A stretch of DNA of 64,000 bases, taken from NCBI RefSeq assembly GCF_900188395.1, contig NZ_FZOB01000002.1, positions 155,076 through 219,075 of the forward strand, in the 5' to 3' direction. Origin of the DNA: Desulfurobacterium atlanticum. Its GTDB lineage: Bacteria; Aquificota; Aquificia; Desulfurobacteriales; Desulfurobacteriaceae. A program made the translations under genes and the position numbers. Positions 27,062 through 59,003 of the stretch are shown in pieces; within the stretch, counting starts at the first letter, position 1, and each line of letters opens with the position of its first letter. Under the pieces are notes generated by a model. It was not told the origin of the DNA, ran no database searches, and saw only the letters and a list, made by a program, of their open reading frames with translations.

Positions 27062-28516
27062 TTAAATTCTACCAAGCTTTTTTAAAATTTCCCGCTTTCT
27101 TATCCTATAAAATATAGGCCTTCCGTGGGGGCAAACATTCTTCTCTTTACAGGAAAGATAAAGATTTATCAACTTTTGAACATCATCTATTGAAACAAAA
27201 GTTGTGCCACCCTTTATAGCCCTTTTACAGGCAACAGAAGCAATAGATTCAGGAGACTCTCCATTCAACAGCTTGTAAACATCTTCAACAGTTAAGATAG
27301 AAGGGATTGAAACAACTTTATAAAAATTTTTCTCTTTTACAACCTCTACTCCGAATCTTCCCAAAGTGACAACTTTCTGGTAATCCTCTATTCTTTCTCC
27401 AATTTCAACATTTACTCTATCAACTTCTCCTTTAAACAGCTTTTCAAGCAGAAGTTCATAGTTAACCCTTTCATGAAGAAGGTGCTTATCAAAAAAATAG
27501 TAATACTCTCCATCTTCACATATAACAACGGTATCATCACTACCTATTATGTTTAACCTGCTTTGATAAAAAGCCTCTTCCGTCTCTTTTAATAACCTTC
27601 GGGTAGCAAACGAAGGAAACTTATACAAAGACGTATCCACTTTTTTTTCAATTTCATCAAGAATATTTCTAATGTTTTTTAAAATTACTCTATCCTTTAA
27701 TGGAGATAGGTTTACATCAACAGACGAAGGAGGAACATCTATAAACAAAACATACTCATCAATCATCAACTTTTTTAAAAGTTCCGAAATCTCTTTAACA
27801 ATCACAGGCCTTCTGTTAACAAAAATCTTCCTGACCTTTCCGCTTTTCCCTTCAAATGAAGTTTTAAAAAAACCGATGAAGAATCTACCTTCAGCAACTT
27901 TAAAATTGGTAATTCCGACCATCTTCACTCTCTCAACCAGAGAAGAAGGATAGAATACCCTATCTCCTACTTTAAAAAAAATAGACTCGTTTGCCAACGC
28001 ATAATCCATAATAACAGCTTTCATCTTTGTTTTCTCTGCTTTTGAAATCTCCCGTTTTCTGATAGGAGCATTAAAATAAAGATTTGAAACAGATACAGCC
28101 GTACCCCCTGAAAATGTTATCGGTTTATAATCAACAATTTCTCCTCCTCTGACAAAAATCTCTCCCCCAATATCTTCATTAAAATATCTGCTTTTTATTC
28201 TTAATTCGGAAAACAGAGAAATAGCGTGCAGCGCTTCTCCTCTAAATCCGTAGGTTTTAAGTCTGTTGAAGTCGTCAATGGAAAAAATTTTACTGGTAGC
28301 AAACCTTTCAACAGAGAGAGGAAGGTCTTCTAAAGGAATTCCCTCACCGTCATCAACCACTTTAAACTCAAAAGGAGAAACAATATCAACAACTATTTTA
28401 GAAGCATTGGCATCTATGCTGTTTTCTATAAGCTCTTTCAAAACGGCAGAGGGAGAAACAGCTATCTGTCCAGCCGCTATTTTTGAAATTATACTTTCAT
28501 CAAGCCGATGTATCAT
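27062..28516 (-). CDS. mutL: DNA mismatch repair protein MutL
   Basis: MutL couples mismatch recognition to strand incision. I take the ATG at 28516 (485 aa), which matches the family N-terminus (IHRLDESIISKIAAG). The ATPase motif KELIENSIDANA, DDGEGI and TYGFRGEAL are intact. Two substitutions are seen where most MutL have AAGEVVERP: the protein has AAGQIAVSP. The short C-terminal domain keeps the endonuclease motifs in slightly altered form: DKHLLHERVNYE, ACKRAIKGG and CPHGRP, so a nicking MutL (no MutH) is likely. It overlaps the upstream ClC stop. Confidence 0.94.
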   Translation of the reverse strand: MIHRLDESIISKIAAGQIAVSPSAVLKELIENSIDANASKIVVDIVSPFEFKVVDDGEGIPLEDLPLSVERFATSKIFSIDDFNRLKTYGFRGEALHAISLFSELRIKSRYFNEDIGGEIFVRGGEIVDYKPITFSGGTAVSVSNLYFNAPIRKREISKAEKTKMKAVIMDYALANESIFFKVGDRVFYPSSLVERVKMVGITNFKVAEGRFFIGFFKTSFEGKSGKVRKIFVNRRPVIVKEISELLKKLMIDEYVLFIDVPPSSVDVNLSPLKDRVILKNIRNILDEIEKKVDTSLYKFPSFATRRLLKETEEAFYQSRLNIIGSDDTVVICEDGEYYYFFDKHLLHERVNYELLLEKLFKGEVDRVNVEIGERIEDYQKVVTLGRFGVEVVKEKNFYKVVSIPSILTVEDVYKLLNGESPESIASVACKRAIKGGTTFVSIDDVQKLINLYLSCKEKNVCPHGRPIFYRIRKREILKKLGRI

Positions 28517-30308
28517 AGTTTCCTGACAGCTTTTTCCTCTCCTGCTCGGCAAGGAAGTTCGCTATATCCACTCTTGTAATCATACCAACAAGATTTTTAC
28601 TTTCAAAATCTTCAACAACAGGAGCTCTTCCAACACCGTTTGTTATAAAGGTGTTTAAAACCTCAAGTATTGTCATATCAGGCAGGACACAAACAGGATT
28701 TTCTGTCATAATATGCTTAACCTCAACCTTATCCCTGTCAGGAATAGGTACTTTCATTATGTCCCTTCCTGTAACCATACCGATAACCCTGCCATTTTCA
28801 ACAACAGGGATTCCTGAAATAGTATATTGAGCCATTAACCTTTCAGCCTTTATAACCGGATCATCAGGAGAAAGAGTTATAACATTCTTTGTCATAATAT
28901 CAGCAACTTTAAATGTTCTAAGTAGGGCTCCTTTAAGCTCGTCCATGTGAGCTGGAGAATCAATTCTGCTTGGAACCTGAGCGGGGAACATACTTATATC
29001 GGTTGTTAAAAGATACGCAACAGAAACAGATATAAGGGCAGGCACAAGAAGGTCATAACCTCCTGTTATCTCTACAACGAGAATAAGTGTTGATAGAGGA
29101 ATATTTGCCGCTGCAGCAAGGGTAGCAATCATTCCAACGATTACAAGAGAAGCTATATCAAGCTCCGAAGGAGGCATAATACTTAAAAAGTGGGCAATAT
29201 GATAAAAGGAAGCTCCTGTTAATCCACCAATTACAAGACAGGGACCAAATATACCACCAGAACCACCGGAACCAAGGGTAAGAGAGAGCCCTAAAATAAC
29301 CATAAAAACACCTAATATTATATGGATGGGAGTTAAGTAATGGAAATTACCGAGCATTATAAGCTGTATCCAACCGTAAGCACTTCCTATTGCAAGGGGA
29401 TTAAGCATACCTAAAATGCCTGTAAAAAATCCGCCTATTGCAGGTTTTAAAGCAGGGTGAAGTTCAAGATTAATGAAAAGGTGGTGAATCTTAAAAAAGG
29501 TATAAACCAACAAACGGGCAACGAAAGCTGCAAGAACACCCATTACAAAATAGGTTATGAAAAGTGGAAGAGATAAACCCTCAAAAGGTTTGGTGGGAAC
29601 CTTGAACATGTGTTCAAAACCCAGGAAAATCCCAACAATAATGTAAGAAGTAACAGAAGCTATAAATCCCGGAATTAACGCTTCAACTTCAAAATCTCTT
29701 CTGTAAAAAAGTTCACCTGAAAGGAGTGCACCTGCAAGAGGAGCTTTAAAAACTCCAGCAATTCCAGCCCCAAGGCCGACGGCAAGGGCAATGTTTCTAT
29801 CATGCTCATCAAGCTTAAACAGTTTACCCACAAAAGAGCCAACACTACCGCCTATCAATGCACTTGGACCTTCCATTCCGGAAACGCCGCCTGAACCTAT
29901 GGTTATTGAAGAAGTGATAAGTTTAAAAACGGCAGACTTCAGGCCCAGGGGTAATCTGAAATGGAACGCTTTAATTGCCATCTCAGTACCTTCGCCGCGG
30001 GCTTCCGGGACAAGATAGGTGATTATGCCCACTATCAGTCCGCCCAGAGCAACGCAAAAAGGTAAAAGAAAAGGTCTTTCCATAATAAAGTGAAAAACAA
30101 CATGACCTCCAGCTTCACCTGCCGGTAGTGGAGGATAGTATCCCACTATTTTTCCAAGGAAAATTTCATAGGAGAATTCAACAGCCTTTATAAATACGAT
30201 TATGAAAAGACCACATAAGACTCCTATTACTCCGGGAACGAAAAGGTCTTGAAAGTTTTCATGGTAGGAAATCGTAAAACGCTTTTTCAACCCTCCAAAT
30301 TGGATCAA
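28500..30308 (-). CDS. ClC-type chloride channel/transporter with C-terminal CBS pair
   Basis: A 602-aa ClC protein. Membrane part: residues about 30-450, with GSGGVSGMEGPSALIG (gating Glu kept) and GSGGSGGIFGPCLVIGG (GxFGP). Residues about 470-595 form two CBS domains (VADIMTKNVITL..., VKHIMTENPVCVL...), which in other proteins sense adenine nucleotides, including c-di-AMP in some. The start is TTG at 30308 with AAGGAGG six bases upstream. It is the first clear gene of the ClC-mutL-htpX-ClC-coaBC-HAD unit. Confidence 0.93.
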   Translation of the reverse strand: MIQFGGLKKRFTISYHENFQDLFVPGVIGVLCGLFIIVFIKAVEFSYEIFLGKIVGYYPPLPAGEAGGHVVFHFIMERPFLLPFCVALGGLIVGIITYLVPEARGEGTEMAIKAFHFRLPLGLKSAVFKLITSSITIGSGGVSGMEGPSALIGGSVGSFVGKLFKLDEHDRNIALAVGLGAGIAGVFKAPLAGALLSGELFYRRDFEVEALIPGFIASVTSYIIVGIFLGFEHMFKVPTKPFEGLSLPLFITYFVMGVLAAFVARLLVYTFFKIHHLFINLELHPALKPAIGGFFTGILGMLNPLAIGSAYGWIQLIMLGNFHYLTPIHIILGVFMVILGLSLTLGSGGSGGIFGPCLVIGGLTGASFYHIAHFLSIMPPSELDIASLVIVGMIATLAAAANIPLSTLILVVEITGGYDLLVPALISVSVAYLLTTDISMFPAQVPSRIDSPAHMDELKGALLRTFKVADIMTKNVITLSPDDPVIKAERLMAQYTISGIPVVENGRVIGMVTGRDIMKVPIPDRDKVEVKHIMTENPVCVLPDMTILEVLNTFITNGVGRAPVVEDFESKNLVGMITRVDIANFLAEQERKKLSGNYDTSA

Positions 30309-30497: not shown

Positions 30498-30526
30498 TTG
30501 ACAGTTAGTTTCATAAAATATAAATT
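30498..30526 (+). promoter_or_regulatory. Sigma-70 promoter of the 30566-32599 operon; rest of the 30309-30565 gap
   Basis: A perfect TTGACA (30498-30503) and TAAATT (30521-30526) at 17-bp spacing predict transcription from about 30533 and a 33-nt leader with GGAGG before the ATG. The remaining 190 bases to the divergent ClC start hold a short minus-strand frame for one membrane helix (see findings) and nothing else I recognise. Confidence 0.65.
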
Positions 30527-30565: not shown

Positions 30566-31258
30566 ATGAATCTTACGGAACTGAGGGAATTGCAGGCACT
30601 TAATACACTTGTGTTTGAAACACTTGGGCAACCTGAAAAAGAAAGGGAGTTTAAGTTTAAATCTCTTAAAAGATGGGGGCTTGATTTAATTTTAGGAAAG
30701 AAAGGTGGGGAGGAAACGTTTTTTGTTTCCGAGTACGGGAAAAGAAAAGTGGGGGATACGTATGAAGAAGAGGGGGTAAAGTACGAAGTTAATGAAGTTC
30801 TGGAGGCTCTTCCAAAGAACAAAAAGTTATTTGCCCATATAGAGATGGAAAACGGAACAGCATATATAGTTGGCGAGTTGAGGGAAGGAGACAAAAACAT
30901 TGAAATACTTAGACTTCCAGCTGCATCAATGCTTCTTGCATACTTCAAAAAGCACCGTCTTCACCACCTTATAGAAGCTTTACGAAACGTAGGAACAGCT
31001 ACAGAACTTGTGAAACAGAGAGGGCAGGAAGGAAAGCCCTATCCGTTTGAAAAACTTCCAAACGTTGCAAGAAGATTTTTGAGAGAAGCTAAAAAAGTGG
31101 AGAAGGAAGCTGGTTTTGGCAGAGTGGCACTTGCATATTTTGGAGAAAACAAAGATGGAGATCCAAGATTCAGGGTATCCTGGCTACTTCCAACAATAGC
31201 TTTATTTGAAATAGATATAGCAGAAAAAGCTGACAAACTTCTTGCAGCTTTTAAATAG
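30566..31258 (+). CDS. Unrecognised protein, first gene of the prefoldin/RAMP-like operon
   Basis: A 230-aa protein that I do not recognise. It has no signal peptide or membrane helix and is rich in Lys, Glu and Leu. The N-terminal 110 residues look alpha/beta, with predicted strands around [22 protein letters not shown] and AYIVGEL; residues 120-190 are predicted helices; the C-terminus has strands RVALAYFG and [18 protein letters not shown] and a final helix. TATGGAGG precedes the ATG. The gene is nine bases upstream of the RAMP-like gene and has its own promoter. It presumably acts with the three downstream products; I assign no function. Confidence 0.75.
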
Positions 31259-31266
31259 GAGTAAAA

Positions 31267-31986
31267 ATGGAACTTTTAACATGGACTCCTATACTGTTTG
31301 CAAAGAAGGAGTTTCCAAGGGATGAGAGCGGGAAACCGTTTCTCCCCGGAAATGTTATAAAGGAAGGGATAATAAGTGCTTTCATTTACTACTACATAAA
31401 AAAAGACAGGGATATAGAAAGCAGAGTGAAGCTTTATCTGTTGAAGCAACATCTAAACCCTGATGAAGTGGTGAGAAGGATTAAAGAGATTATCTCTGAT
31501 AAGTATCCTGAAATTCTAAACTTTGAAGTGATAGAAAGGATAGATCTTTCAAGTGGAGAGATATATACGACAACAGCAGAAGTTTTCCATCTAAAAAATT
31601 GGAAAGAGATAGAAACTTTTAAAGTGGAAGTGTTTAAAGGAAAGATAGAGCTTCCTCTGAAAATAAAGATACTTGAGAAACTTAAAGCTGCGGGGCACTC
31701 ATTTTGTGAAGCTCTCGCAAGGATGGAAATGAGAATGCTTGGAGAACATCCCATTGTTGAGACATTCTACAAACCTCTGCTAAATGATATGAAAAGGTGG
31801 GAGATTCCCCTTAGACTTGGGATGTGGACTGATACAAAATTTAGGGGTAATTTGCTCTTTTTCTGGAGAATCAAAGAGGTCAGGAATAGAATTTTTGAAG
31901 AGCTGAAAATAGACATAAGACCAACAAAGGTTATTTACTTACCAAGAGAAAAAGCCACAGCAGGGTGGTGTGAGATAAAAATTTAA
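31267..31986 (+). CDS. Stand-alone RAMP-like (Csm5-like) protein, tentative
   Basis: A 239-aa protein whose layout resembles the Csm5 branch of CRISPR RAMP proteins. It begins LLTWTPILFAK, then has PFLPGNVIKEGIISAFIYYYI, which matches the RAMP pattern 'y-h-PGSSlKGalR-a'. Near the C-terminus are PLRLGMWTDTKFRG (Gly-rich loop position) and RPTKVIYLPREKATAGWCEIKI-type ending (quoted in part: YLPREKATAGW), like the 'kTr-l...GW-kl' ends of Csm5. The middle is a charged helical region. No other cas gene is adjacent. RBS GGAG precedes the ATG. The family call is my pattern reading; an unrelated ferredoxin-like protein is possible. Confidence 0.5.
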   Translation: MELLTWTPILFAKKEFPRDESGKPFLPGNVIKEGIISAFIYYYIKKDRDIESRVKLYLLKQHLNPDEVVRRIKEIISDKYPEILNFEVIERIDLSSGEIYTTTAEVFHLKNWKEIETFKVEVFKGKIELPLKIKILEKLKAAGHSFCEALARMEMRMLGEHPIVETFYKPLLNDMKRWEIPLRLGMWTDTKFRGNLLFFWRIKEVRNRIFEELKIDIRPTKVIYLPREKATAGWCEIKI

Positions 31987-32010
31987 AAACCTGTTAGAGG
32001 GAGGTGAGTC

Positions 32011-32466
32011 ATGGCTGTGAAGAAGAACGACAAAGGGATGACAGATCTTACAAGACAGCTCAGAAGCCTCATTGCACAGATTGAGGCGTTGAGGGTGGAA
32101 ATTTCTCAGCTGGACACCCTTGTATCTGAGTACAGAAGCACCATTACAACGCTAAAAAACCTTAAAGAGCTTGGAGCCGAGAAAGAGGTTCTTCTGCCTG
32201 TAGGAAGGATAGCTCAGGTAGGGGCTAAACTTGAAGATGTGGATAAGGTAGTGATAAGTATTGGGAGCGGTATATCTGTAGAACTTCCATTTGATGAAGC
32301 TGTTGAACAGATAGAAAAGGAGATTATAGCTGTTCTTGCTCTGAGAGAAGCACTGGAAAAAGCTATGGTTGAGCTTTACGGTAAGGTTGAAGAGCTGTCT
32401 CAAAAAATAAGAGAACACGGACAGGCAGAAGCTGGAGGCAAAGAAGATGAAGGAGAAGAAAAATAA
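32011..32466 (+). CDS. Archaeal-type prefoldin alpha subunit
   Basis: A 151-aa protein with the full prefoldin alpha layout: an N-terminal coiled-coil helix (about residues 10-55), a central beta region (VLLPVGRIAQVGAKL, DKVVISIGSGISVEL) forming the two hairpins, and a C-terminal coiled-coil helix (about 90-135), with a charged tail. The segment LPVG...A.L.DVDKVVISIGSG...DEA matches archaeal PfdA closely. In archaea prefoldin (alpha2 beta4) hands unfolded proteins to the group II chaperonin, which bacteria normally lack. GGGAGGTGA precedes the ATG. The gene overlaps the following small gene by 20 bases. Confidence 0.88.
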   Translation: MAVKKNDKGMTDLTRQLRSLIAQIEALRVEISQLDTLVSEYRSTITTLKNLKELGAEKEVLLPVGRIAQVGAKLEDVDKVVISIGSGISVELPFDEAVEQIEKEIIAVLALREALEKAMVELYGKVEELSQKIREHGQAEAGGKEDEGEEK

Positions 32467-32599
32467 AGAAAAGGAAAGGGTGTTAAAATTTCTTGAAAAG
32501 TTGCCTCCAGACAGGAAAATTTATTATAGAATCGGAACTGTTATGGTGGAGGTTACAAGGGAGGAAGCGATAAGGCTTTTAGAAAAAGAGGAAAACTAA
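32447..32599 (+). CDS. 50-aa mini prefoldin-beta-like protein
   Basis: A small gene inside the end of the prefoldin alpha gene in another frame. GGAGG (32434-32438) lies 8 bases before the ATG. The 50-aa product has a short charged helix (KEKERVLKFLEKL), then PPDRKIYYRIGTVMVEVTREEA, and a last short helix (quoted here in part: IYYRIGTVMVEV, EEAIRLLEKEE). This matches the centre of prefoldin beta, where a helix ends in 'L-e-l-dd-VYk-iGnilvkv-keea-eeL'. Both long coiled-coil arms are absent. It is too short to form a normal prefoldin beta and may complete a hairpin sheet with the alpha subunit. Confidence 0.72.
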   Translation: MKEKKNKEKERVLKFLEKLPPDRKIYYRIGTVMVEVTREEAIRLLEKEEN

Positions 32600-32617: not shown

Positions 32618-32647
32618 AAAGAGGCTGCTTTTTATAGCAGCCTCTTT
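32618..32647 (+). terminator. Terminator of the prefoldin/RAMP-like operon
   Basis: AAAGAGGCTGCT (32618-32629) pairs perfectly with AGCAGCCTCTTT (32636-32647), loop 6 nt, followed by TGTTTTT. It lies 18 bases after the mini prefoldin-beta stop and separates that operon from truA. Confidence 0.85.
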
Positions 32648-32699: not shown

Positions 32700-33455
32700 A
32701 TGGAAAGAAACATAAAAATAACTCTTGAGTATGATGGAACAAACTATATGGGCTGGCAGATTCAGAAGCACGGAAAAACAATACAGGGAACTGTTAAAGA
32801 GGTTATTGAAAAGATAGTTAATCATAAGATAAATCTTGTAGGTGCAAGTAGAACAGATGCTGGAGTTCATGCTTTTGGACAGGTTGCAAATTTTAAAACA
32901 ACAAAAGAAATGCCTATTGAAAGGCTTAAAAGAGCAATTAATGGTCTTTTGCCGCCAGACATAAAAGTTGTGAAAACAGAAGAAGTTTCTCTTTCTTTCC
33001 ATTCAAGACTTGATTCCAGGGGTAAAACGTATGTTTACCGGATTTTTAATAGAGATGTTCCATCTCCTTTTGAATATAAAAAGGCATGGTTTATCTCTCA
33101 CGAAATCAAAGAAGCAGAACTACAGAAAGTGTTAAACCATTTTATAGGAACACACGACTTTACCACTTTTTCAAAACTATCATCAGATGAGAAGAAAAAT
33201 CCGATTAGAACCATAGATAGGATAGATGTGAAAAGGGTTAATCACACAATAACGATAACTATAACAGGCCGTTCCTTTCTAAGACACATGATAAGAGTGA
33301 TAGTTGCAACAGCAGTTGAATCGCTAAAAGGAAAAATAGATAGAGACTCCATCCCCGAACTTTTTAAAAAGCGAGACAGAAAGTTTGCCCCTTTCCTTGC
33401 GCCTCCTGAGGGATTATACTTAATGAAAGTTTATTATAATGATTATCCATTTTAA
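32700..33455 (+). CDS. truA: tRNA pseudouridine(38-40) synthase
   Basis: Isomerises uridines 38-40 in the anticodon stem-loop. The 251-aa protein has the N-terminal EYDGTNYMGWQIQ, the catalytic Asp motif GASRTDAGVHAFGQ, the conserved YRIFNR tyrosine region and, near the C-terminus, GRSFLRHMIRVI. Length is typical. A GGAG site precedes the ATG at 32700. It lies 25 bases upstream of hypF on the same strand; a transcriptional link is likely but not a functional one. Confidence 0.97.
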   Translation: MERNIKITLEYDGTNYMGWQIQKHGKTIQGTVKEVIEKIVNHKINLVGASRTDAGVHAFGQVANFKTTKEMPIERLKRAINGLLPPDIKVVKTEEVSLSFHSRLDSRGKTYVYRIFNRDVPSPFEYKKAWFISHEIKEAELQKVLNHFIGTHDFTTFSKLSSDEKKNPIRTIDRIDVKRVNHTITITITGRSFLRHMIRVIVATAVESLKGKIDRDSIPELFKKRDRKFAPFLAPPEGLYLMKVYYNDYPF

Positions 33456-54368: not shown

Positions 54369-55645
54369 CTTTGGGAAAAACGACCTCTTTTACTACCTCT
54401 GGAACAGTTTCAATTCCTTAGAGGTACGCTTAAAACTACAGAACAGGCAGAAACCTATGCTGGAATTTACCGGTTTCAATTCCTTAGAGGTACGCTTAAA
54501 ACCCAGGATATGGAAGAACTCAAAAGACGGTATCCTGATCTGTTTCAATTCCTTAGAGGTACGCTTAAAACAAAACTCATTTTGAATATCTATCATTATT
54601 ATTAGATAGGTTTCAATTCCTTAGAGGTACGCTTAAAACCACCTTTAGCTTCAATGAAACCTTTCTGCTTTAGATAGTTTCAATTCCTTAGAGGTACGCT
54701 TAAAACTTTCCGGCAAAAGAGGAATCCCAGATAGAATCCCTGTTTCAATTCCTTAGAGGTACGCTTAAAACTTTAGAAAATAATGAGATTCTTTTTGTTG
54801 ATTATTCGTTTCAATTCCTTAGAGGTACGCTTAAAACAAGGGAAAGGATTTTCATTTCCTCTGACTTCTATTGTGTGTTTCAATTCCTTAGAGGTACGCT
54901 TAAAACAAGCAGTAAAAACTAAATCATACCTTAAAGAGATAGCTGTTTCAATTCCTTAGAGGTACGCTTAAAACTCGTAAAATCTTTCTAGAAGTTGGTT
55001 TCTTTTATGGGTTTCAATTCCTTAGAGGTACGCTTAAAACAATCGGTGCTGAAAATGTCGGTCAAGTAGTTTCCAAATTGTTTCAATTCCTTAGAGGTAC
55101 GCTTAAAACTGATGGATTTAGAGAAGTATTATATGTTTGATCCTAGTTTCAATTCCTTAGAGGTACGCTTAAAACTTTAGATACAATAGAAGAAGATTTA
55201 GCAAGTCAGTTGTTTCAATTCCTTAGAGGTACGCTTAAAACCTCATCTCTCTTTCCTCCTTCTCTTTTGTTTTGGTAAGTTTCAATTCCTTAGAGGTACG
55301 CTTAAAACTTGGTGAGGAATATAAGAATATTATAATTGAAGAGTTTCAATTCCTTAGAGGTACGCTTAAAACGCGGTGTTTGACCTTATTAAGAATGCTT
55401 ATTCCATCAATAGTTTCAATTCCTTAGAGGTACGCTTAAAACAAGATGAAAAAGATAGCAAAAATCGGGAAAGCAACTTAGTTTCAATTCCTTAGAGGTA
55501 CGCTTAAAACTATATCATAACCTTACCAACAACAAAAAATCCAAATAGTTTCAATTCCTTAGAGGTACGCTTAAAACCATATATATACCTTCTGTAGGTA
55601 TGAATGAGCTTACTAGTTTCAATTCCTTAGAGGTACGCTTAAAAC

Positions 55646-55883
55646 GATAATTCAAGTATAAAAGCAACTTTTTTTAGATCAAGTTTCAATTCCTTAGAGG
55701 TACGCTTAAAACGATAATTCAAGTATAAAAGCAACTTTTTTTAGATCAAGTTTCAATTCCTTAGAGGTACGCTTAAAACGATAATTCAAGTATAAAAGCA
55801 ACTTTTTTTAGATCAAGTTTCAATTCCTTAGAGGTACGCTTAAAACGATAATTCAAGTATAAAAGCAACTTTTTTTAGATCAA
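55646..55883 (-). repeat. Four tandem copies of one CRISPR spacer
   Basis: The 37-nt spacers at 55646-55682, 55713-55749, 55780-55816 and 55847-55883 are identical, giving four exact 67-bp repeat-spacer units. This points to slippage or unequal recombination in the array rather than four independent acquisitions. Confidence 0.95.
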
Positions 55884-58800
55884 GTTTCAATTCCTTAGAG
55901 GTACGCTTAAAACAAGAATGTGAAGTGTGGCAAAACATGTAATTATTGTAGTTTCAATTCCTTAGAGGTACGCTTAAAACTTTTTTTACACTTTATTGCT
56001 GATATAACAGGTTAAATAGTTTCAATTCCTTAGAGGTACGCTTAAAACTCGAAAGAATTATCAACACAGATTTACTACGTGTTGAGTTTCAATTCCTTAG
56101 AGGTACGCTTAAAACACAAATAACTCAATAGGTTCATATGTACTATCTTTAGTTTCAATTCCTTAGAGGTACGCTTAAAACAAGAAAACCGAGAAAAAGG
56201 AGGTATAAAATGAAAGGTTTCAATTCCTTAGAGGTACGCTTAAAACATTGATTAAGCATAAATCTGTAATTATACAATTGTGGTTTCAATTCCTTAGAGG
56301 TACGCTTAAAACAAATCCAGTAGCTTTGTCTATAATATGCGCCGTATTATGTTTCAATTCCTTAGAGGTACGCTTAAAACAGATACAAATGGAAATCCTA
56401 CAGTTTATAAATTTCCTAAGTGTTTCAATTCCTTAGAGGTACGCTTAAAACCCTTTGTGATCATTTCCAACCTCCTTTTTTGTTTTGTTAAGTTTCAATT
56501 CCTTAGAGGTACGCTTAAAACTTATGGTAGAATGAAGAAAACCGAGAAAAAGGAGGTGTTTCAATTCCTTAGAGGTACGCTTAAAACTAGGGAAAGCAAC
56601 TTATAGAAGGTTAATCTCACGGTGTTTCAATTCCTTAGAGGTACGCTTAAAACTTAACATCTTTACAGAAAAAGTTGAAAGTCTCGTTGTGTTTCAATTC
56701 CTTAGAGGTACGCTTAAAACACGGGATAAGATACACTCAACTTGGTTATGCTGGTGGCAGTTTCAATTCCTTAGAGGTACGCTTAAAACCAGATGTCTGT
56801 TGGGAATGTTTGTTTCCTATAAAGAGTTTCAATTCCTTAGAGGTACGCTTAAAACCCAGGCGGCAAGTGCATTTTCGGTGCTGTCAAGCTCTACGTTTCA
56901 ATTCCTTAGAGGTACGCTTAAAACACAAAACCTGTATTAGATTTTGTATTCAATATAAAAGAGTTTCAATTCCTTAGAGGTACGCTTAAAACAAATAGTT
57001 TAGAACATGTTTTATCAAACACAAAAAGTTTCAATTCCTTAGAGGTACGCTTAAAACAAATAGTTTAGAACATGTTTTATCAAACACAAAAAGTTTCAAT
57101 TCCTTAGAGGTACGCTTAAAACTGTTCCTATAAATAGCTCTTTTCCACTTACAGGATGTCGTTTCAATTCCTTAGAGGTACGCTTAAAACATGTTTCGGG
57201 TATATATTATTGTATGAAAAAAACTGTTTCAATTCCTTAGAGGTACGCTTAAAACAATAATGGAAGATAGGGATTTAGCGTCGCCGTCATAGTTTCAATT
57301 CCTTAGAGGTACGCTTAAAACGTATATTTCCAGTGAACGGCTTTATTAAATGCCGCTTGTTTCAATTCCTTAGAGGTACGCTTAAAACCAGGTTGAGCCG
57401 GAAGTCTCTCAACTCCAAGCAAAGCTCCGTTTCAATTCCTTAGAGGTACGCTTAAAACCCTGACGCTCCAGTTCAGACTATTCCAGATGATGCTAGTTTC
57501 AATTCCTTAGAGGTACGCTTAAAACTATATACGATAATTGTTTCAAAAACTTGGGATATAGGTTTCAATTCCTTAGAGGTACGCTTAAAACAGTCCGCTG
57601 TCTTTCTTTTCTCGTCGCCGCCGTTCTTTGTTTCAATTCCTTAGAGGTACGCTTAAAACTAGAGAGAAAGGATATTGTTTCTTACGCCTTGCGAGAGTTT
57701 CAATTCCTTAGAGGTACGCTTAAAACTTAAATTATATTTTTTTATTAGAAAATCAACATATTTAGTTTCAATTCCTTAGAGGTACGCTTAAAACAATTGC
57801 ATTTAAAAGAGATAAGATTGTATTTGCTCAGTTTCAATTCCTTAGAGGTACGCTTAAAACCCTAAACCACAGTCATATTACACTGCTGTTTACAATGGTT
57901 TCAATTCCTTAGAGGTACGCTTAAAACTATAAAAGGAATAAGATGTTATAGGGTGGATATTTTGTTTCAATTCCTTAGAGGTACGCTTAAAACAGATTTT
58001 GATTCTGACACTCAAGCGTTGCTTGAGTGTTTCAATTCCTTAGAGGTACGCTTAAAACCATCGTTTATCCTCCTAAATATATATTATTTTTAATTAGTTT
58101 CAATTCCTTAGAGGTACGCTTAAAACCTTTTGGAGATTAGCTATCTTTTTGAGCTTTTTCCGTTTCAATTCCTTAGAGGTACGCTTAAAACCATATGGAA
58201 CTGTAATGTTTCGTGGTGTTGGATCGGTTTCAATTCCTTAGAGGTACGCTTAAAACTCAAGTCGGTTATAAAAATACATCCAAGCCTGTTTATGTTTCAA
58301 TTCCTTAGAGGTACGCTTAAAACTATATTAGGTTTGAATACGATATCGCCGGATTCGTAATCGTTTCAATTCCTTAGAGGTACGCTTAAAACGAAATAAA
58401 CGATTATAAACTTCAAGAAAATATAAACAGTTTCAATTCCTTAGAGGTACGCTTAAAACAGCTTTTAGTGTAGTATAGTCGTTAGTTACACTATCTTGTT
58501 TCAATTCCTTAGAGGTACGCTTAAAACACGCAAGTCGTTGAATTTGAAAACTGGTGAAATAAATTAGGTTTCAATTCCTTAGAGGTACGCTTAAAACGAA
58601 GTACCGTCAGTAAAGAATATACCTGCCTCTGATATGTTTCAATTCCTTAGAGGTACGCTTAAAACGATATCCAATAACAGAAGATTACGATAAAGGTATT
58701 GTGTTTCAATTCCTTAGAGGTACGCTTAAAACTATCGTATATTTTCATTTTGACATTTTCGTTATTCAAGTTTCAATTCCTTAGAGGTACGCTTAAAACA

Positions 58801-59003
58801 AGGTTTTACCGTAGTTGATAAATTTGCCCCTGCTATTTTCAGTTTCAATTCCTTAGAGGTACGCTTAAAACTATCTAGATTTTTATTCAATCTAGATAAC
58901 AAACCAAGTTTCAATTCCTTAGAGGTACGCTTAAAACTTAGAGCCACTGGGGTGTAAAACCCCAGTGAAATTAGTTTCAATTCCTTAGAGGTACGCTTAA
59001 AAC

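Follow-up and report, generated by a model that had tools for sequence, protein, structure and literature searches.

A conserved operon of a heat-loving vent bacterium links a predicted gamma-prefoldin to a Csm5-fold protein and a UPF0128 protein

Why a bacterium should carry archaeal-type prefoldin genes in one operon with a gene for a RAMP-like protein is the question raised by a short locus of Desulfurobacterium atlanticum, a heat-loving inhabitant of vents, within the 64,000-nucleotide stretch of contig NZ_FZOB01000002.1 analysed here (the window). Four genes follow one another on the forward strand: gene A (30566-31258; 230 aa), encoding a UPF0128/TIGR00703 protein; gene B (31267-31986; 239 aa), encoding a stand-alone protein of the Csm5 (RAMP) fold without the K-G-R residues of Csm5; gene C (32011-32466; 151 aa), encoding a predicted gamma-prefoldin; and gene D (32447-32599; 50 aa), encoding a minimal prefoldin-beta that consists of a beta-hairpin without coiled-coil arms. 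A check of the open reading frames of the window found the four same-strand frames exactly where a preliminary description of the locus had placed them, with 8 bp between A and B, 24 bp between B and C and an overlap of 20 bp between C and D. Outside the operon lie a gene for a chloride-channel-like protein on the reverse strand (28500-30308) and, downstream, truA (32700-33455), both assigned by reading. In near relatives, the identity of A is about 77-93%, that of B 46-72% and that of C 50-86%, with the gene order unchanged; thus, these open reading frames are not chance.

The proposed promoter, TTGACA-17-TAAATT (30498-30526, forward strand), is not significant as a pattern, given that 9 promoter-like sites occur in 4 kb compared to 8.2 expected. 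Its support comes from recurrence: the same element stands at a similar distance 5' of A in 26 of the 53 upstream regions of relatives, a set that includes repeat copies of one genome, vs. 1.2 expected in shuffles. At the end of the operon, the intrinsic terminator that had been proposed (32618-32647, forward strand) is backed by folding (−20.3 kcal/mol, z = −4.4, none of the 200 shuffles being equally good). In several relatives (L002, L007-L009, L011 and L014), the palindrome TTTAGATAACCTAAA (TTTAG-N5-CTAAA) lies between the −35 and −10 elements of the A promoter and is a possible operator. The palindrome is missing from the A promoter of D. atlanticum as well as from the X and DUF505 promoters (see below), so no shared operator is claimed.

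The four genes are real; the four-gene operon of the preliminary description, however, is a truncated view of a system of six to seven genes. Among many genomes (e.g. L056, L058-L061, L063, L065, L067, L068 and L190), the order is A-B-C-D-X-Y; L223 and L224 have it too, except that D and X are separated by a gap. X and Y are membrane proteins without annotation: X, of about 165 aa, has a soluble domain and a single hydrophobic segment at its N-terminal end, whereas Y, of about 180 aa, has about four hydrophobic segments. Genus g24 (L180 and L226) has C-X-Y-A-B-D-DUF505 in one operon, and in g30, A, C-D and X-Y are found at separate places. In D. atlanticum itself, X (65821-66318), Y (65279-65818) and DUF505 (66481-68418) lie together on contig C7, away from the A-B-C-D operon, with X and Y divergent from DUF505. 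The X-Y pair also occurs without A, B, C and D in genera g3 and g18 (L216, L217, L218 and L219) and hence has an independent existence. DUF505, for its part, occurs in ten genomes that lack A, so that a wider role of X, Y and DUF505 is possible.

The distribution of the genes across Aquificota agrees with this linkage. Of 136 genomes, 47 have A and 48 have prefoldin alpha; 45 have both, 86 have neither and five are discordant, these five being 64-89% complete and including one marginal match. Because related genomes are not independent, we relied on the count at the genus level, where the sets with A and with C are identical (14 of 30 genera, Fisher p = 7 × 10−9). As the two sets nearly coincide, the prefoldin alpha of Aquificota is essentially found only alongside UPF0128. 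Across the 61 genomes tested, B and C are present together in 22 and absent together from the rest; DUF505 was detected in every A-bearing genome among these 61 and in 14 of the 17 A-bearing genomes reached via other loci, and X in 36 of the 47 genomes with A. The preliminary description had named two outcomes that would count against it, genes that part company in relatives and predicted structures unrelated to the prefoldin and RAMP folds; both were checked and neither came out that way, the joining of alpha-like and beta-like prefoldins to a RAMP protein being kept in relatives and the model of B being a Csm5 (see below). Conserved order and joint inheritance show that the genes serve one pathway; they do not show that the products form one complex.

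C is recognised as PF02996 (3.5 × 10−23) and is the only protein of this family in the genome. Its profile scored 155.5 bits against 6vy1, compared to 55.9 (2zdi_C) and 53.0 bits for canonical alpha prefoldins; 6vy1 is a PDB entry named prefoldin subunit alpha 2, which we take to be the gamma-prefoldin of Methanocaldococcus jannaschii. The two proteins are 48% identical over nearly the whole length, the beta assembly domain being best kept (21/34 identical positions, compared to 22/47 and 17/37 in the coils), and the C homologue of g30 is 65% identical to the M. jannaschii protein. Going by these sequence comparisons, C falls within the gamma-prefoldin branch and not among the canonical alpha subunits: the earlier assignment holds in that the protein is prefoldin alpha-like and fails as to the branch, and the filament scaffold that had been suggested as a possibility gains plausibility. 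In M. jannaschii, gamma-prefoldin self-assembles via its beta-sheet domains, pairs with neither alpha nor beta, shows a 26-fold induction under lethal heat and makes up filamentous structures inside the cells, some of them along the cell axis (PMC11117396). M. jannaschii likewise has UPF0128 and DUF505. Unlike in that archaeon, the host here is a bacterium, and the gene shares its operon with those for a reduced beta subunit and a Csm5-fold protein, joined in relatives by genes for membrane proteins. A phage origin of C was considered and rejected, PHROGs having returned only weak coiled-coil matches.

D, previously described as a 50-aa prefoldin beta-like fragment, matches the core of PF01920 (4.3 × 10−9; 36.7 bits vs. 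a cut-off of 27.6), scores below the cut-off of the equivalog TIGR02338 and aligns with 2zdi_A (1.3 × 10−4). Relatives of D were sought with single sequences, an iterated D profile having been dropped because it was contaminated by gene A proteins. In the alignment, the coiled-coil arms are missing and the hairpin is retained. Longer forms of 86-99 aa occur in relatives from g24 and g30, indicating that D is a reduced form, not a chance open reading frame.

For B, the suggestion of a Csm5/RAMP-like protein is borne out by structure prediction. The AlphaFold2 model (pLDDT 94.8) superimposes on Csm5 6mur_F with Z = 16.4 and an rmsd of 2.9 over 223 of 239 residues (VIA-align); Csm5 entries fill the first 30 rows, and proteins of any other kind come no higher than Z = 7.6. 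Foldseek (4 × 10−8) and a profile-profile comparison with 15 Csm5 proteins from the same phylum (hhalign, 97.3%, E = 1.7 × 10−11) agree, and no Pfam family is over cut-off, glycosyltransferase and FTH matches being below it. The whole fold is common to B and the Csm5 of type III-A complexes (6mur_F, 6o7e_Y and 7v02_E), at about 240 residues compared to about 350-400 in Csm5. In the signature of Csm5, P-G-S-x-h-K-G-A-h-R, the K, G and R are invariant among the 15 proteins from the same phylum, whereas the corresponding columns of B are, respectively, mixed (K in 12 of 29), E, D or Q, and mostly T; the P-G turn and a Gly-Trp near the C-terminus are kept. Unlike Csm5, B lies outside the csm operon, its neighbours in relatives being A and C, and it is present without type III-A: Csm5 over the family cut-off is absent from 13 of the 22 genomes with B. 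We conclude that B is a Csm5-fold protein that has departed from CRISPR, with loss of K-G-R, and has been recruited to another job.

A is a full-length member of UPF0128/TIGR00703 above the curated cut-offs (8.3 × 10−100 in Pfam and 4.3 × 10−101 in NCBIfam), as the DUF505 protein is of its own family, and is better conserved than its neighbours, with about 90% identity where B has about 70%. Of 14 control genomes, a single one has UPF0128, that of M. jannaschii, the archaeon where gamma-prefoldin was discovered; the family was detected in only 3 of the 392 genomes sampled from the phylum of an Archaeoglobaceae MAG in which a DUF505-like gene comes after A. In WOR-3-labelled MAGs (L071:4458-6678), genes for a TPR protein, Y and UPF0128 stand in a row, with no X, B, C or D nearby.

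The explanation we favour, tentatively and at a probability just short of even, is that the operon encodes a bacterial gamma-prefoldin system, that is, a membrane-tethered scaffold or holdase with dedicated adaptors. C would assemble via its beta-sheet domains into a filament or a shorter oligomer, and the hairpin of D could bind the same beta interface and thereby cap or size the C assembly, a role for which an engineered subunit that has one interface disabled and caps filaments (PMC4895442) provides a precedent. B, conceivably no longer suited to crRNA, would form with A a dedicated pair of soluble adaptors, and X and Y would tie the C assembly to the inner membrane. For the physical complex that we infer, the likely job would be to protect a thermophile against heat, as a holdase or scaffold located at the membrane and working without a group II chaperonin. 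An extension of this explanation, whereby vent bacteria of deep-branching lineages would share with archaea a hitherto undescribed membrane-attached intracellular filament system made of a gamma-prefoldin polymer, a reduced beta subunit as its natural cap and a recruited Csm5 as a structural or client-binding adaptor, appears possible if rather doubtful.

A nucleic-acid role via A and B is the rival that we take most seriously, even if it seems on the whole improbable. A and B would bind RNA or single-stranded DNA, which DUF505 and the gamma-prefoldin assembly would organise or protect, for example as an RNA chaperone or an RNA-quality body at the membrane. The ancestor of B was RNA-binding, both proteins are basic (pI 8.8 for A and 9.2 for B), DUF505 has winged-helix matches, albeit sub-threshold, and the best structural matches of the A model (pLDDT 84) are the nucleic-acid-binding proteins PUR-alpha and PC4. 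However, these matches of A are below a meaningful level (Z = 4.4), no firm match to its fold having been returned by Foldseek or VIA-align, and the K-G-R that is invariant in the compared Csm5 is lost from B, which speaks against the RNA binding that the preliminary description had envisaged for the RAMP-like subunit. Membrane partners, moreover, would be unexpected in a machine of this kind.

A further rival is a cytoskeleton-like or membrane-organising structure, in which C filaments attached by X and Y would shape the cell or arrange membrane domains and A and B would be filament-binding accessories. X and Y adjoin the operon in relatives, Y accompanies A and the TPR protein in L071, and the axis-aligned filaments of M. 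jannaschii (PMC11117396) point the same way. Nevertheless, we regard this reading as unlikely: presence of the system is patchy (14 of 30 genera), relatives live without it, and this pattern points to a function in stress or in a particular niche that cells can do without, not to a core determinant of shape.

A CRISPR or defence module, in which B would still function as a variant of Csm5 and the operon would either assist type III CRISPR or constitute a novel anti-phage system, is very improbable. Apart from the Csm5 fold, it can draw on the genome itself, which has type III-A csm5 genes and an array of 69 repeats (Rfam CRISPR-DR2) within the window (54407-59003). That array, however, is 22 kb from the operon and no adjoining cas gene was seen; its neighbours are prmC-, EPSP-synthase-, MscS-, PMT-, Obg- and semialdehyde-dehydrogenase-like genes. 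Neither a cas gene nor a CRISPR array adjoins the operon, PADLOC returned weak matches only (B to Csm5, 7.5 × 10−5; C to the coiled-coil protein LmuB, 5.7 × 10−4), and a scan of IMG/VR viral contigs yielded no relatives of A. Together with the loss of the signature residues and the 13 genomes that have B without Csm5 over the family cut-off, the stable co-inheritance of A-B-C-D, unlike the turnover of an island, leaves little of the defence role that had been suggested.

An ordinary prefoldin pathway, in which C and D would form the classic jellyfish hexamer and hand clients over to a group II chaperonin, as the adjacency of an alpha-type and a beta-type gene recalls from canonical archaeal and eukaryotic prefoldin (1fxk and 2zdi), is equally improbable, because a PF00118 search of the genome found a single chaperonin, GroEL (TIGR02348, 5 × 10−247), and none of group II, D has no coiled-coil arms, and C is assigned to the gamma branch, which associates with neither alpha nor beta in M. 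jannaschii (PMC11117396). GroEL as the only chaperonin does not fit a prefoldin-thermosome pathway, and the occurrence of B where type III-A CRISPR is lacking does not fit a CRISPR effector.

The families and folds of the parts are already known; their combination is without description in the open-access papers searched, the text of which held nothing for UPF0128, TIGR00703, Csm5 with prefoldin, or gamma-prefoldin with Aquifex. There is a real chance that the combination represents a new kind of membrane-attached assembly. Gamma-prefoldin, which has been described from M. jannaschii with its role left open (PMC11117396), would here occur in bacteria as a member of a fixed gene set whose co-inheritance is near-perfect. 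The set supplies the first candidate partners for it, namely UPF0128, the Csm5-fold protein, the mini-beta subunit, two membrane proteins and DUF505, and gives the UPF0128 and DUF505 families a genomic context. The partners can be tested in M. jannaschii too, UPF0128 and DUF505 being present there and a strain with tagged gamma-prefoldin existing (PMC11117396). B also provides a case of Csm5 having left CRISPR for other work.

Some further genes were observed near DUF505 and UPF0128. At L176:4021-7370, genes for a thermo KaiC ATPase, a near_KaiC regulator and DUF505 stand in a row, and in the g30 genomes (L078:2877-3524), the near_KaiC regulator is beside UPF0128 and divergent from it. A KaiC link to the operon was rejected as not specific, since near_KaiC is present in 118 of the 136 genomes. 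Directly 3' of DUF505 on contig C7 of D. atlanticum (L102:10444-11514), a gene encodes a 357-aa protein that is conserved across Desulfurobacteriaceae (72-85% identity) and reaches the cut-off of no family in Pfam or NCBIfam.
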